Origin: Flavobacteriales bacterium
GTDB lineage: Bacteria > Bacteroidota > Bacteroidia > Flavobacteriales_D > Crocinitomicaceae
Direction of reading: 5' to 3'
Length of the DNA stretch: 42,743 bases
Assembly: GCA_947476955.1 (NCBI GenBank)
Contig: CANJSS010000008.1
Coordinates: 1-42,743 of the forward strand
Positions 18,249 through 22,649 of this stretch are shown one piece after another; positions within the stretch are counted from its first letter, which is position 1, and the number at the start of each line of letters is the position of its first letter. The translations under genes were made by a program, and so were the position numbers. The notes beneath the pieces were generated by a model. That model saw only the letters and a program-made list of their open reading frames with translations. It had not been told where the DNA came from and made no database searches.

Positions 18249-18280
18249 AAAATCCGAAGCCAGCGTTTTAGGATTTTTTT
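18249..18280. terminator. Terminator between convergent methylase and djlA-like genes
   Basis: AAAATCC (18249-18255) pairs with GGATTTT (18271-18277) around a 15-nt loop, followed by a T-run on the plus strand. The stem is only 7 bp, so strength is moderate; it may serve both strands. Confidence 0.6.
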
Positions 18281-19059
18281 CACTTAAAACCTCTGCTCTT
18301 TTTGATTGCCTCATAGGAATCTTGGATTTTCTGAAATTTCTCCTTTGCACCTTTTTGGAATTCTTCGCCCATATTTGCTACTTTATCCGGGTGAAACTTT
18401 ATCGCCATTTGACGGTATGCCTTTTTTACCTCATCGTCTGCTGCGCTGGCTTCAATTCCTAGAACTTTATAATCGGAATCCACATCGCGGTAGAACATGT
18501 TTTTTACGCTTTCAAAATCCTGAGACGAGATTCCAAGCATATCCGAAATACTTTTAATTACTTTCAATTCCGCATCGGCTACATGCCCATCCGCTTTAGC
18601 TATACCAAATAAATAGTGCACTAAATGCGTTCGAACTTCCGGCTGCATGCGCATGCGAATATCCTGACAAATTTGTTGTAACGGAATATTTCCAGAATCG
18701 ATAAATTGCTTTAATGTTTGTAAGTGCGACGAATTAAAACGCCCACCGAATTGCTGTGTAAAAAATGCTTTGACATAATCTAGTTCCGCTTTTAAAACTT
18801 TTCCATCTGCTGTCATAACCGCCGCAGAAAGTGCCATTAGCATTGTTGGGACATCATTCGCAGAAGAACGCTGTTGGTAAAACTGAAATAATTCTTCCGG
18901 TGAAAAAGTGCGGCCTTCTCTCTTTGCTTGGTCCTTCATTTGACCAATAGTTCGTTGGTAATTATCTATGAATGTACCTATTACAAAGCCAATTGCACCA
19001 ACAAAGAAATTGCGACCGAAAAGTAAATAAGCGCCAACGGCAAAAATCCATTTAAACAA
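18280..19059 (-). CDS. DjlA-like membrane-anchored J-domain protein with TerB domain
   Basis: Predicted co-chaperone for DnaK at the inner membrane. An N-terminal glycine-rich hydrophobic segment (about 4-30) is followed by a TerB-like helical domain (about 70-175, with LSAAVMTADGKVLKAELDYV and KADGHVADAELKVI) and a C-terminal J domain (about 195-255) with the essential HPD tripeptide in KFHPDK. I place the start at TTG 19059, giving MFKWIFAV, directly behind a TTG / TATATTTG promoter. The longer frame to 19089 would begin in the T-run of the htpG terminator and run through the promoter. Length is then 259 aa, close to E. coli DjlA (271). It lies directly downstream of htpG, another chaperone gene, but appears to have its own promoter. 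Confidence 0.88.
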   Translation of the reverse strand: MFKWIFAVGAYLLFGRNFFVGAIGFVIGTFIDNYQRTIGQMKDQAKREGRTFSPEELFQFYQQRSSANDVPTMLMALSAAVMTADGKVLKAELDYVKAFFTQQFGGRFNSSHLQTLKQFIDSGNIPLQQICQDIRMRMQPEVRTHLVHYLFGIAKADGHVADAELKVIKSISDMLGISSQDFESVKNMFYRDVDSDYKVLGIEASAADDEVKKAYRQMAIKFHPDKVANMGEEFQKGAKEKFQKIQDSYEAIKKSRGFK

Positions 19060-19061
19060 AA

Positions 19062-19089
19062 CAAATATATTAAAAGTTGAAAAAAACAA
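19062..19089 (-). promoter_or_regulatory. Promoter for djlA-like gene, nested in htpG terminator
   Basis: On the minus strand TTG (19089-19087), a 17-bp gap and TATATTTG (19069-19062) match the Bacteroidota consensus exactly. The TTG overlaps the last paired bases and T-run of the htpG terminator. The box ends only 2 nt before the proposed TTG start codon. Confidence 0.55.
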
Positions 19090-19131
19090 AAAGTGCGATT
19101 CCGCTGCGCAAACACCAGTAACCGCACTTTT
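19089..19131 (-). terminator. Intrinsic terminator after htpG
   Basis: Read on the minus strand, AAAAGTGCG (19131-19123) pairs with CGCACTTTT (19097-19089) around a 25-nt loop and is followed by a T-rich run. The 9-bp stem lies about 20 bp after the htpG stop. Confidence 0.8.
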
Positions 19132-19152
19132 GTGACGTAAAATTACATTTTT

Positions 19153-21042
19153 TTAAGCTATTTGCTCAATATTTCGTTCAATAAATGCATTTAATGCTTC
19201 TCCCTTCAACATTCCTTGTGCTAACATTGCGAGATCGGTAAGTTGTTTTACAGTAGCTTTTTGTTCCTCCTCATTTTTAGAAAGTACACTGGTAACTTTA
19301 GGATGATTTGCATTTACAACTAAATTATACATTTCAGGAAAAGCGCCCATAAATCCACCGCCGCCCATTTTTTGTTGTTCCATCATCCGACGAATGAATT
19401 CTGGCTGTGTAATTATAATTGGCGCGTCATCTTCACTCATGCTTTCAAATTGCACCGTGAATTTTTCTTTATTCACAGAAGCTTCAAAAACTGGTTTCAA
19501 TTTCTCTTCTTCCTCTTTAGACAATTTAGATGGAATTTCATCTGATTTTTGAATCAATTTATCCAAGGTATCTGCATCTACTCGAGCGAATGTGATATTT
19601 TCCATGGATTGCTCCATTTTTGCAATCCAATGCGGAGCAAGTGGTCCGTCTAAATGTAAAACATCGTATCCACGATCTTTCGCCTTTTTAACAAAGGAGA
19701 ATTGTTCTTCTGGATCATTTGTATACAAGAAAACTGTTTTTCCGTTTTTATCGGTTTGCAAAACAGCAATTTTTTCTTTGTATTCTTCTGTTGTAAAGTA
19801 ATCACCAGTTGTATTTTTTAATAGTGCAAATGCTGTTGCTTTTTCCGCAAATTTCTCATCGGACAAACTTCCGTATTGCACAAATATTTGCAAATCGTTC
19901 CATTTTTCCTCGAAATCTTTGCGGTCTTTTTTAAACATATCCGCTAATTTATCTGCTACTTTTTTTGTGATATGCGAAGAAATTTTCTTTACGTTACTAT
20001 CACTTTGCAAATAGGAACGGGAAACGTTTAAAGGAATATCCGGTGAATCAATCACACCGTGCAACAAGGTTAAGAATTCAGGAACTATTTCTGCAACGCT
20101 GTCTGTAATAAATACTTGATTTGAGTATAAATTAATTTTGTTTCGTTGAACTTCTACATTTTCCTTGATTTTTGGGAAATATAAAATACCAGTTAAATTG
20201 AATGGATAATCCACATTCAAGTGGATATGAAACAATGGAGAATCAAAAGTAGTAGGATATAACTCCCGATAAAAAGCATCGTAATCATCCGATGTCAGAT
20301 CTACTGGTGCTTTTGTCCAAGCCGGTGCAACATTATTGATTTGATTTGGATTTTCAATTGCAACGCGTTTTACCTTTCCATTTTCATCTTTTTCGCCTTC
20401 CGGTGAGTCGATGTATTCCGTTTTGTTTCCAAAAAAGACAGGAATTGGTAAAAACTTACAGTACTTATTCAAAATATCAGAGATACGGGCTTTTTCCAAA
20501 AATTCCAAAGCATCTTCCGCGATGTATAGAATAATATCCGTTCCTCGCTCTTCCTTGTCAATTTCGGTGATTGTATATTCTGGCGAACCATTGCTTTCCC
20601 ATTGTACAGCCTTAGAACTTTCATGACGTGATAAAGTGCGTATCTGAACGCGCTCCGCAACCATAAATGCCGAATAAAATCCTAAACCAAAGTGGCCAAT
20701 TATTTGCTCCGCTCCTTCAGTACCTTTGTATTGTTGCACAAATTCTTCCGCACCAGAAAAGGCAATTTGATTGATGTATTTATCAATTTCATCTTCTGTC
20801 ATTCCAATTCCGCGGTCGCGAATTGTTAGTGTTTTTTCTTCTTTATTGAGAATTACATCCACTTTCAAATCGCCAACATCACCCTTGTATTCTCCATTTG
20901 CAGAGAGGATTTTTATTTTTTGCGATGCATCGACTGCATTGGATACTAGCTCTCTCAAGAAAATCTCGTGATCCGAGTATAAGAATTTTTTAATGATTGG
21001 AAAAATATTTTCCGTTTGTACATTAATCTGTCCGGTTCTCAT
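19153..21042 (-). CDS. htpG: Molecular chaperone HtpG (Hsp90)
   Basis: ATP-dependent cytoplasmic Hsp90 chaperone of 629 aa, the usual bacterial length. The N-terminal GHKL ATPase domain shows RELVSNAVDAS (near residue 33, with the catalytic Glu and nucleotide-binding Asn), IRDRGIGMTEDEI and GHFGLGFYSAFMVA. The middle domain carries the conserved arginine segment (VSRSYLQSD, about 338) and the C-terminal dimerisation domain follows. The start at 21042 gives the family N-terminus (MRTGQINVQTENIFPIIKKF). No TAnnTTTG box is found upstream. Instead the leader holds a TCGAA-CTA-TTCGA inverted repeat (21056-21068), a sigma-54-like TGGCAC-N5-TTGTC (21082-21067) and tandem repeats (21095-21130), which suggests stress-specific control. 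It is followed by its own terminator. Confidence 0.97.
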   Translation of the reverse strand: MRTGQINVQTENIFPIIKKFLYSDHEIFLRELVSNAVDASQKIKILSANGEYKGDVGDLKVDVILNKEEKTLTIRDRGIGMTEDEIDKYINQIAFSGAEEFVQQYKGTEGAEQIIGHFGLGFYSAFMVAERVQIRTLSRHESSKAVQWESNGSPEYTITEIDKEERGTDIILYIAEDALEFLEKARISDILNKYCKFLPIPVFFGNKTEYIDSPEGEKDENGKVKRVAIENPNQINNVAPAWTKAPVDLTSDDYDAFYRELYPTTFDSPLFHIHLNVDYPFNLTGILYFPKIKENVEVQRNKINLYSNQVFITDSVAEIVPEFLTLLHGVIDSPDIPLNVSRSYLQSDSNVKKISSHITKKVADKLADMFKKDRKDFEEKWNDLQIFVQYGSLSDEKFAEKATAFALLKNTTGDYFTTEEYKEKIAVLQTDKNGKTVFLYTNDPEEQFSFVKKAKDRGYDVLHLDGPLAPHWIAKMEQSMENITFARVDADTLDKLIQKSDEIPSKLSKEEEEKLKPVFEASVNKEKFTVQFESMSEDDAPIIITQPEFIRRMMEQQKMGGGGFMGAFPEMYNLVVNANHPKVTSVLSKNEEEQKATVKQLTDLAMLAQGMLKGEALNAFIERNIEQIA

Positions 21043-21066
21043 AGTTATATTTTTTTCGAACTATTC

Positions 21067-21082
21067 GACAATCTTTGTGCCA
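21067..21082 (-). promoter_or_regulatory. Possible sigma-54-type promoter of htpG
   Basis: The minus strand reads TGGCAC-AAAGA-TTGTC, with one key mismatch (T for C in the -12 GC) to the RpoN consensus TGGCAC-N5-TTGCA. The predicted start would be about 10-15 nt before the htpG ATG. This is tentative: RpoN is not encoded in this window. Confidence 0.25.
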
Positions 21083-21094
21083 CCACTATTATTA

Positions 21095-21130
21095 TGACAA
21101 AATGGCTAAAGATTTGACAAAATGGCTAAA
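21095..21130. repeat. Tandem 16-bp repeat with 20-bp period upstream of htpG
   Basis: TGACAAAATGGCTAAA occurs perfectly twice, at 21095-21110 and 21115-21130. It is 53 bp upstream of the htpG ATG and 20 bp before the -7 box of the divergent membrane-protein gene. Each unit contains a partial dyad (TGACA-AAA-TGGCT). An operator for a stress regulator is the likeliest role. Confidence 0.55.
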
Positions 21131-21150
21131 ATATATCCATAAAAAAAGAG

Positions 21151-21158
21151 TACTTTTG
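21151..21158 (+). promoter_or_regulatory. -7 promoter box for membrane-protein gene
   Basis: TACTTTTG matches TAnnTTTG exactly, 15 nt before the TTG start at 21174. The tandem repeats end 20 bp upstream, where an activator or repressor could touch polymerase. Confidence 0.5.
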
Positions 21159-21173
21159 TAAAAAAAAGCAAGT

Positions 21174-22649
21174 TTGATTTACCCATTATTACTTATCGTT
21201 TTTTTAGTTTTACTTATACGCTATTCCAAAGTCTTCCAATTAGAAGGACTTTCGAAATGGATAATGCCAACAGCTTTTATTATTAAAATTCTAGTTGGTT
21301 TATTGCTTTTTTGGATGCATATTCAGACTTATGGACTAGGGGATTTAAGCCACGATGGAGGAACTTTCCTGCGCGAGGGTCTGTATCTAAACAATGTGTT
21401 TTTTGAATCTCCAAAACATTATTTTCAATTGTTAACTGGAATTGGCGAATCACCTGCGTTAATTGCCAAACATTTGTACATGACCGAATATTGGTCTTCT
21501 GGAGATTTGACGCTTATCAACGACTCCAAAAATGTAATTCGCCTGCATAGCATCATTCATTTTTTTTCTGGGAATTCCGTTTTAATTCACCTTTCTATTT
21601 TTTGTTTATTTTCGTTGCTAGCGTTAAAAAACTTTTTTCTTGCCTTCAAACCTTTCGTTCAGCAACCTAGCGCCCTCGTTTTTTGGGCTTTATTACTGGT
21701 TCCAAGCACCATATTCTGGACATCCAGCCTTTTAAAGGAACCATGGGTATTTCTTGGGTTGAGCTTTTTAGCGCGTGCTATTTTGTACGATACAAAAATG
21801 TATCGAAAAGCGATTTACACAGGTTTATCCATAATCTTTTTAATTGGTTTTAAACCCTACGTTTTAGTTTGCATTTTACTAGCATTAATCGCTTATTTAG
21901 TCTACCGTTTTGTTTTTCGATTTAAATTAATCCCAACGATTTTAGTGCTTCTTGCAACCATATTTATTAGTGGAATTCTCCTGGAAAAACCACGCAACAC
22001 GATCGTTCACTACCTTTCCAGAAAACAATTTGATTTTGTGAATGTCGGAAAAGGGGGATTGCATGTTTCTGCAGATAAGTGTTTTTATTATTTCCAACCA
22101 TTTCAATATCGGAATTTAAAAATAACAGGATCTGAAGTTAGATTATTGAAACCTACAGATGCATATATAGCACATTTTGGCAGTATCCAAAAACCAATTC
22201 CTATTCACCTCACGCCTAAAGGAGAAGTTTGGAGAAGGCATTATTTCACAGAAGGTTGCATGAGTTTCATTGAAACAACACCAATTATGAACAAATCCAA
22301 ACAATTGGCTCGCAATATCCCAGAAGCGCTAACAAACAGCATAATCCGTCCATTTCCAAACGATCCGGGTAGTAATTTGAAATTTTTATCCTTTGCAGAA
22401 GTTTGGCTAATCTTTGGATTCCTAGCGATTGCATGGATCAAACGCCGCAAATTATCGGATGTAGAAAGGGGGATTATTTTTATGCTAGCTATTTTTTCTA
22501 TTATTTTATTCCTTTTAATTGGTTGGACAACACCAGTCTTAGGTGCGATTACGCGGTATAGATTTCCAGCACAATTTGCAGTGATACTCATTGGAATGAT
22601 TCTTATAAAACCCATAAAAATACAACCATGGCGAATTATATTTTTATAA
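21174..22649 (+). CDS. Polytopic membrane protein, function not recognised
   Basis: I do not recognise this 491-aa protein. It has about nine or ten hydrophobic segments: two near the N-terminus (2-16, 30-50), then about 137-159, 168-190, 205-250 (two helices) and 255-275. A roughly 130-residue mostly polar stretch follows (about 278-405), then three more helices at the C-terminus (about 415-430, 440-460, 470-485). The architecture resembles GT-C-like glycosyltransferases or O-antigen polymerase-type proteins, but no diagnostic motif is visible. The start is a TTG (MIYPLLLIVF) placed behind a promoter box; no ATG is available nearby. The end overlaps the following SDR gene by 22 bp, so they are co-transcribed. 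Confidence 0.8.
   Translation: MIYPLLLIVFLVLLIRYSKVFQLEGLSKWIMPTAFIIKILVGLLLFWMHIQTYGLGDLSHDGGTFLREGLYLNNVFFESPKHYFQLLTGIGESPALIAKHLYMTEYWSSGDLTLINDSKNVIRLHSIIHFFSGNSVLIHLSIFCLFSLLALKNFFLAFKPFVQQPSALVFWALLLVPSTIFWTSSLLKEPWVFLGLSFLARAILYDTKMYRKAIYTGLSIIFLIGFKPYVLVCILLALIAYLVYRFVFRFKLIPTILVLLATIFISGILLEKPRNTIVHYLSRKQFDFVNVGKGGLHVSADKCFYYFQPFQYRNLKITGSEVRLLKPTDAYIAHFGSIQKPIPIHLTPKGEVWRRHYFTEGCMSFIETTPIMNKSKQLARNIPEALTNSIIRPFPNDPGSNLKFLSFAEVWLIFGFLAIAWIKRRKLSDVERGIIFMLAIFSIILFLLIGWTTPVLGAITRYRFPAQFAVILIGMILIKPIKIQPWRIIFL

Follow-up and report, generated by a model that had tools for sequence, protein, structure and literature searches.

Control of chaperone genes by sigma54 in Bacteroidota has already been published (PMC9723704, PMC12316311). 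In F. psychrophilum, sigma54 (SM4) promoters were mapped by 5'-end RNA-seq and precede groES, lon, dnaK, grpE, htpG, clpB and genes for a rhomboid protease and a thioredoxin, with the htpG start lying at a sigma54 motif; the same organism has three PF00158 proteins, one of them beside LptE (PMC9723704). The promoter elements are described as TGGCAC plus a TGC-type element at a distance of 5-7 nt (PMC12316311). Classical enhancer-binding proteins (bEBPs) occupy sites ~100-150 bp upstream and act by looping, often helped by IHF (PMC7057263). PspF and HrpRS are described as being controlled in trans.

Here we analysed a stretch of DNA of 42,743 nucleotides (the window) from a 2.7 Mb draft genome, G000, against a comparison set of 60 genomes, likewise labelled G; most of the named relatives closest in HtpG are recorded as Crocinitomicaceae, Flavobacteriales or Flavobacteriia MAGs. 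In the whole window, TGACAAAATGGCTAAA occurs exactly twice, at 21095-21110 and 21115-21130, the copies being 20 nt apart from start to start, so that the perfect 16-bp tandem repeat with a 4-nt spacer and a 20-bp period reported in the initial annotation is indeed present, both copies exact. When 16-base words of more than two letters were counted at periods of 10-60 nt, this pair was the sole perfect repeat in the window; of 150 sequences simulated for the whole window with a first-order Markov model, one contained such a repeat. No further copy of TGACAAAATGGCTAAA was found in the draft genome at 0-1 mismatch. Read along the htpG strand, the elements run TTTAGCCATTTTGTCA-aatc-TTTAGCCATTTTGTCA-N12-TGGCAC-N5-TTGT, followed by 25 nt to the ATG, and each repeat copy contains a degenerate dyad, GMCA-N3-TGTC. 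The features of the region are as follows.

19153..21042, minus strand: htpG (Hsp90), the proposed regulated gene (open reading frame; PF00183).
21068..21071, minus strand: sigma54 -12 element TTGT (consensus TTGC); TTG in 28/28 htpG promoters.
21077..21082, minus strand: sigma54 -24 element TGGCAC of the htpG promoter; best-scoring element TGGCAY in 28/28 htpG promoters.
21095..21110, minus strand: repeat copy 1, TTTAGCCATTTTGTCA on the htpG strand, holding the proximal dyad.
21096..21106, minus strand: proximal dyad GCCATTTTGTC, with the consensus GACA-N3-TGTC and a gap of 13 nt to TGGCAC downstream; proposed activator site, centre ~-44.
21115..21130, minus strand: repeat copy 2, holding the distal dyad.
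21116..21126, minus strand: distal dyad GCCATTTTGTC, 33 nt upstream of TGGCAC and 20 bp from the proximal dyad; proposed second activator site, centre ~-64.
21151..21158, plus strand: TAnnTTTG, the -7 box of the divergent membrane-protein gene; a neighbour outside the element.
21174..22649, plus strand: divergent membrane-protein gene, a neighbour, for which neither Pfam nor NCBIfam gave a match at the chosen thresholds.

The sequence TGGCAC-N5-TTG at 21068-21082 on the htpG strand, with the proximal dyad 13 nt upstream, recurs in relatives. Thirty htpG loci were fetched and two were dropped (L028 and L033, in which the matches begin inside the gene); in all 28 remaining promoters, our own included, TGGCAY-N5-TTG was the top-scoring element before htpG, and the base following TTG was usually A, not C. 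A second set of 80 named htpG loci, reduced by L130 and L157, which came without upstream sequence, overlaps the first in part (L099, for example, is the G018 assembly); here, the TGG...TTG core was present in 67/67 non-Bacteroidales and 10/11 Bacteroidales loci. Transcription of htpG is predicted from the -12 spacing to start at ~21057. The gene for sigma54, rpoN, was found in 59/60 genomes, and its PF04552 domain was matched in G000 with an E-value of 2.4e-52. As the initial annotation had claimed, no TAnnTTTG box occurs on the htpG strand in 20901-21250, an absence that the sigma54 -24/-12 element accounts for, and the -7 box of the divergent gene does lie beside the repeat, as TAnnTTTG at 21151. 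Overlooked at that stage were TGGCAC-N5-TTG, the dyad within each repeat and the fact that what is conserved is this dyad, at a fixed distance from the element. On the other side of htpG, 63 nt after it and on the same strand (18280-19089 in the window, minus strand), lies a gene for a protein with TerB and DnaJ domains, perhaps part of one transcript with htpG.

The proximal dyad, scored as at least 6 of 8 matching bases, lies at a gap of 13 nt in 27/28 htpG promoters, our own included (8/8 bases in 12, 7/8 in 14 and 6/8 in 1), the sole exception being G010, with a dyad at gap 14. At the same threshold, it was found at gap 13 in 59/67 named non-Bacteroidales loci; the remaining eight have it one base closer (L109, L110, L115 and L118) or one base further (L167 and L168), or have no full dyad except at gap 34 (L114 and L163). 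The distal dyad (at least 6 of 8) was present at gap 33-34 in 15/28 htpG promoters and absent at that gap in 13/28; it was found in 15/19 promoters within the genus and 0/9 outside, with a period of 20 or 21. Among the 67 named loci, 42 have a distal dyad at gap 31-37, distributed over gaps 34 (22), 36 (11), 35 (8) and 33 (1). The two dyads are identical only in G000 and its nearest relative, G018, among the 28 promoters compared, whereas in other genus members with both dyads the two differ, GCCA-N3-TGTC being frequent at the distal position and GACA-N3-TGTC at the proximal. Because identity is restricted to these two genomes, the perfect repeat looks like the product of recent local copying inside an older two-site arrangement. 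The initial annotation had regarded absence of the repeat from the htpG promoters of close relatives as evidence against its proposal; the exact repeat is indeed absent from most relatives, but the component dyads are present. In the Prevotella group, htpG (L169-L173, L176) has a strong sigma54 consensus, without GACA-N3-TGTC at gap 13. Across Bacteroidales as sampled here, the gap-13 dyad was found in 0/11 htpG loci, with L161 having a dyad one base closer. The exact dyad layout is thus not phylum-wide, because it is missing from these loci even though all but one of them keep the sigma54 core, and the activator site in Bacteroidales may differ.

Besides htpG, the initial annotation had proposed searching upstream of groES, clpB, dnaK and lon in related genomes. 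Dyads do recur there, and also before grpE, but those at dnaK and clpB are weak. The mean dyad score at gap 13 (of a possible 8) was 7.14 for htpG, 6.79 for grpE and 4.67 for groES, compared with shuffle maxima of 2.82-2.97 over any gap (200 shuffles per gene, the highest mean at any gap being taken); the best mean scores for dnaK and clpB were 3.89 and 3.62, respectively, and the highest value at any gap in the shuffles of all five genes was 2.97. Rows dropped were clpB L273, L274 and L277-L280 (partial or paralogous), dnaK L309 and L310, and one grpE row with <71 nt upstream. The gap-13 dyad (at least 6 of 8) was found in 25/28 grpE promoters and in 18/30 groES promoters, the latter with more sites near 45; dnaK has a dyad at gap 24 in 7/28, and clpB (n = 24) has dyads at gaps 23 (7), 24 (9), 54 (8) and 55 (9). 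By information content, most positions of the dyad reached 1 bit at htpG and grpE, but groES, dnaK and clpB all fell short of this. The -12 element of groES is off-consensus. In G000 itself, the dnaK dyad is weak (5 of 8, gap 24), as are the two groES dyads (gaps 13 and 45, each 6 of 8), and the best clpB dyad is the far one (7 of 8 at gap 54). In G000, the groES upstream region on contig C72 (L206/L363) carries a TGTCAG...CTGACA stem followed by a T-run after secG, a terminator-like element with the same half-sites as the dyad; similar stem sequences were seen by eye in many groES upstream regions.

Genome-wide, the htpG-derived pattern GACA-N3-TGTC-N13-TGGC-N7-TTG, with at most 1 mismatch, had 144 matches in the 60 genomes, and 55/60 genomes were matched; the reversed control gave 5. 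The three matches in G000 are at grpE, htpG and lon. Thirty of the 144 were examined as loci and precede grpE (16), htpG (5), rhomboid (3), thioredoxin (3), LemA (2) and lon (1) genes, named by translation, with a Pfam check on a single representative per gene type apart from htpG. Eleven more regions with matches comprised seven before grpE, lon (2), rhomboid (2), thioredoxin or HtrA-like genes, two without an open reading frame after the match (L369, L373) and two in which the match, by eye, lies inside coding sequence (L374, L375). Because of these last four, some of the genome-wide matches are chance occurrences. A half-site pattern, TGTCA-N11-13-TGGCAY-N5-TTG, gave 52 matches (34 of them at htpG by coordinates) versus 16 in the control and was dropped in favour of the dyad pattern for its low contrast. 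In G047 (L364, L365, L366, L378, L071), a very strong sigma54 consensus and CCTGACA/TGTCAGG words were observed before groES, grpE and three further genes.

The dyads with at least 6 of 8 matches, 239 in 138 promoters of the five genes, pile up at gaps 13, 23-24, 33-35, 43-46 and 53-55, a ladder of spacings of 13, ~23.5, 34, ~45 and ~54.5 nt. Among 14 periods tried, vector strength was highest at 10.5 bp (R = 0.80). All phasing tests use related genomes, which are not independent, and the test to weigh is the one on merged clusters: 11 gene-wise clusters, merged by hand from recurring gaps (groES 43, 45 and 46, for example, into 45), gave R = 0.93, equalled by 0/200,000 random sets. Leaving aside those at 13, eight clusters remain, with a mean deviation of 0.5 bp from a 13 + 10.5k ladder, versus 2.6 for random sets. 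Four of the 11 clusters come from groES, where some sites overlap the terminator-like element; with groES left out, five clusters other than 13 remain, and 1/200,000 random sets came as close. The ladder is not perfectly rigid, because the distal htpG sites of the named loci spread over gaps 33-36. Dyads thus look as if they recur on one face of the DNA before protein-repair genes in relatives, and the spacing fits the earlier suggestion that a period of about two helical turns could seat two dimers on one face.

We consider the following reading quite probable: the repeat, which goes with htpG, would constitute tandem upstream activating sites of a sigma54-dependent htpG promoter, with the likely bEBP being a sensor-less one linked to miaB and lptE. 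The regulator is most likely an activator (an enhancer-binding protein), because the promoter that it would serve is of the sigma54 type. In the proposed mechanism, bEBP dimers would dock at the dyads (~-44 and ~-64), on one DNA face and right behind the sigma54-RNA polymerase; the docked dimers would assemble an AAA+ ring and contact sigma54 at once, without a long loop, and the promoter would be opened when proteins misfold. Here, we infer binding, activation and heat induction, the activation by heat or misfolding because the target genes are proteostasis genes. Sites near -44 are unusual for a bEBP, because textbook sites lie 100-150 bp upstream and act by looping; the htpG centres, counted from the predicted transcription start, fall outside that range, which is typical of bEBP sites but not required. 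More tentatively, and with somewhat less than even confidence, we propose that Crocinitomicaceae and their relatives may run a heat-shock-type response via a sensor-less bEBP placed right behind the sigma54 polymerase, on a single face of the helix, in whole-turn steps of 13, 23.5, 34, 45 and 54.5 nt, by direct stereospecific contact and not by free looping.

It is improbable that the dyads instead bind a repressor or modulator beside the sigma54 polymerase, with the true activator acting from elsewhere or from solution. Such sites would abut the expected polymerase footprint, and conservation and phasing alone cannot separate an activator from a repressor. Nevertheless, sigma54 promoters need an activator, and no other run of positions in the 60 nt upstream of htpG and grpE is equally conserved (conservation was scored to 71 nt upstream, and single positions outside the dyad reach 1 bit). 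Phasing from 13 to ~54 nt would also fit promoter-protein contact better than occlusion.

Four strong PF00158 proteins are encoded in G000, among which the candidate activator is the following.

G000, contig C72, 8298-9542, minus strand: candidate bEBP, in a miaB-bEBP-lptE-TPR-secG-groES-groEL run, 2.3 kb upstream of groES.

We take the first gene of this run to be miaB from its radical-SAM and TRAM domains. The candidate (PF00158, E-value 8.6e-67; HTH_8, E-value 6.9e-15) consists of an AAA+ domain, a lid, a variable linker (264-368) and a Fis-type HTH, with no N-terminal sensor domain, and reached no NCBIfam cut-off among the 25 families listed out of 30. Orthologs with at least 60% identity were found in 59/60 genomes, four of them partial; none was found in G043 (best match 44%), perhaps owing to an assembly gap, and this genome keeps the grpE dyad (1 mismatch), its listed bEBP having GAFTSA and no HTH. 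The bEBP lies within 5 kb of groES in 26/29 genomes, the others being G038 (far off), G047 (other contig) and G043. All 29 aligned candidate orthologs have GSFTGA or GAFTGA, and in the HTH alignment, which leaves out the G046 bEBP, the core LGISERTLYRKI is identical in 29/29 and the longer word LGISERTLYRKIKEY is found in 26/29. Mean column identity is 0.88 for the HTH, 0.87 for the ATPase and 0.47 for the linker. Judged by synteny, conservation and elimination, the miaB-lptE-linked bEBP is likely the best candidate activator, and chaperone demand could be sensed via its variable linker or a partner protein.

Quite improbable, too, is the binding of the dyads by another bEBP of G000, such as the receiver-domain protein on contig C96 or the RtcR-like protein on contig C148. 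Both have GAFTGA and an HTH-like C-terminus, with HTH_8 in the C148 protein, and the second bEBP match of the sister genome G018 is of the C96 kind, a receiver-type protein with an intact GAFTGA. Genomes with few bEBPs argue for the miaB-linked protein. Thirteen genomes have just two bEBP matches, of which nine were examined (G006, G016, G047 and G048 were left out, the two matches of G047 coming from one candidate). In 7/9, namely G026, G028, G041, G049, G052, G055 and G059, the second match is a receiver protein with GAFTSA and without an HTH (six by Pfam, G059 by its C-terminus); the other two of the nine are G018 and G043. Five of those seven have dyad pattern matches, G041 and G055 having none, and in these five (G026, G028, G049, G052 and G059) only the miaB-linked type of the two has an HTH and an intact GxFTGA. 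Moreover, the one bEBP candidate obtained from G047 (~1.5 Mb, 78% complete) lies next to miaB, and in front of groES and grpE this genome still has TGTCA, followed after 11-13 nt by a consensus sigma54 promoter.

On contig C7 of G000, between dnaK (791-2575) and grpE (19119-19595), lies a response regulator with a sigma54-activator domain, GAFTSA and no HTH; eight other genomes also encode such GAFTSA-bearing, HTH-less proteins, and in several relatives a receiver-type bEBP match of about this length occurs on the grpE contig, within ~10 kb of grpE. The gene for the RtcR-like bEBP with a PF06956 N-terminus (L186, G000, contig C148, 2580-5294) adjoins an open reading frame resembling a retron-type reverse transcriptase (YADD, by eye).

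That the repeat might be the operator of the divergent membrane-protein gene is very improbable. It does end 20 nt short of that gene's TAnnTTTG box, but in six genomes in which the homolog (30-42% identity) lies off the contig of htpG, the 213-250 nt upstream of it contain no dyad at up to 1 mismatch, while htpG keeps its proximal dyad in G027, G030, G031 and G035, the four of those six in the compared set. We rejected the operator reading on the grounds of these dyad-less homologs, with the reservation that G034 offers only 213 nt and that fragmentary genomes leave adjacency possible; the place of the site beside the -7 box of the membrane-protein gene looks incidental. A functionless chance tandem duplication in an AT-rich spacer is scarcely credible: exact copy identity, confined to G000 and G018 of the 28, may reflect recent local copying, but dyads recur at fixed spacing across the family and before unrelated genes, with 144 pattern matches against 5 in the control. 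A CIRCE/HrcA identity was rejected, since the CIRCE consensus, TTAGCACTC-N9-GAGTGCTAA, had 0 matches in the window (up to 3 mismatches) and was found in 0/139 upstream regions (up to 4 mismatches). The core idea of the initial annotation, sites for a stress regulator not of the CIRCE type, therefore largely stands, in that the sites go with htpG, recur and are not CIRCE, and needs correcting in that the promoter is of the sigma54 type.

How protein damage is sensed in this large bacterial group has, as far as a limited literature search showed, not been worked out. The promoter class and gene set are known, whereas the near-promoter, helically phased activator site and the named candidate activator are apparently undescribed so far: titles and abstract beginnings, among the matches listed, contained no description of an upstream site or activator, and the text on F. 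psychrophilum in PMC9723704, in the portion consulted, names no upstream activator site, spacing rule or activator for this group. What the present analysis offers is a concrete site, a rule for its spacing and a single leading candidate for the activator of a proteostasis regulon. If the near-promoter phasing is functional, this would be a natural sigma54 system with fixed activator geometry, suited to studies of how bEBPs reach the polymerase without long loops.

Among the closest described systems is the SM4 set of F. psychrophilum, whose sigma54 gene list overlaps well with the genes found before dyads; LemA and the HtrA-like protease are absent from its printed selection, and its gliding and lipoprotein genes are absent from the matches examined here (PMC9723704). 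The candidate activator resembles PspF and HrpRS in combining AAA+ with an HTH and in having no N-terminal sensor domain, but is unlike PspF in its score (288.7 bits, versus an equivalog cut-off of 443.55), its long variable linker and its different neighbourhood. FleQ is an earlier case of a bEBP with sites that do not lie in the far-upstream range usual for the class, but differs in its receiver-like N-terminal domain and its flagellar and biofilm targets. CIRCE/HrcA serves the same kind of target genes as the dyads, but the promoter here is of the sigma54 type and the upstream regions searched are devoid of CIRCE. Finally, like classical bEBP sites, the dyads lie upstream of a sigma54 promoter and are predicted to be bound by bEBP HTH domains; unlike them, the nearest is separated from the -24 box by just 13 nt, and those further upstream are offset by roughly integral turns of the helix.
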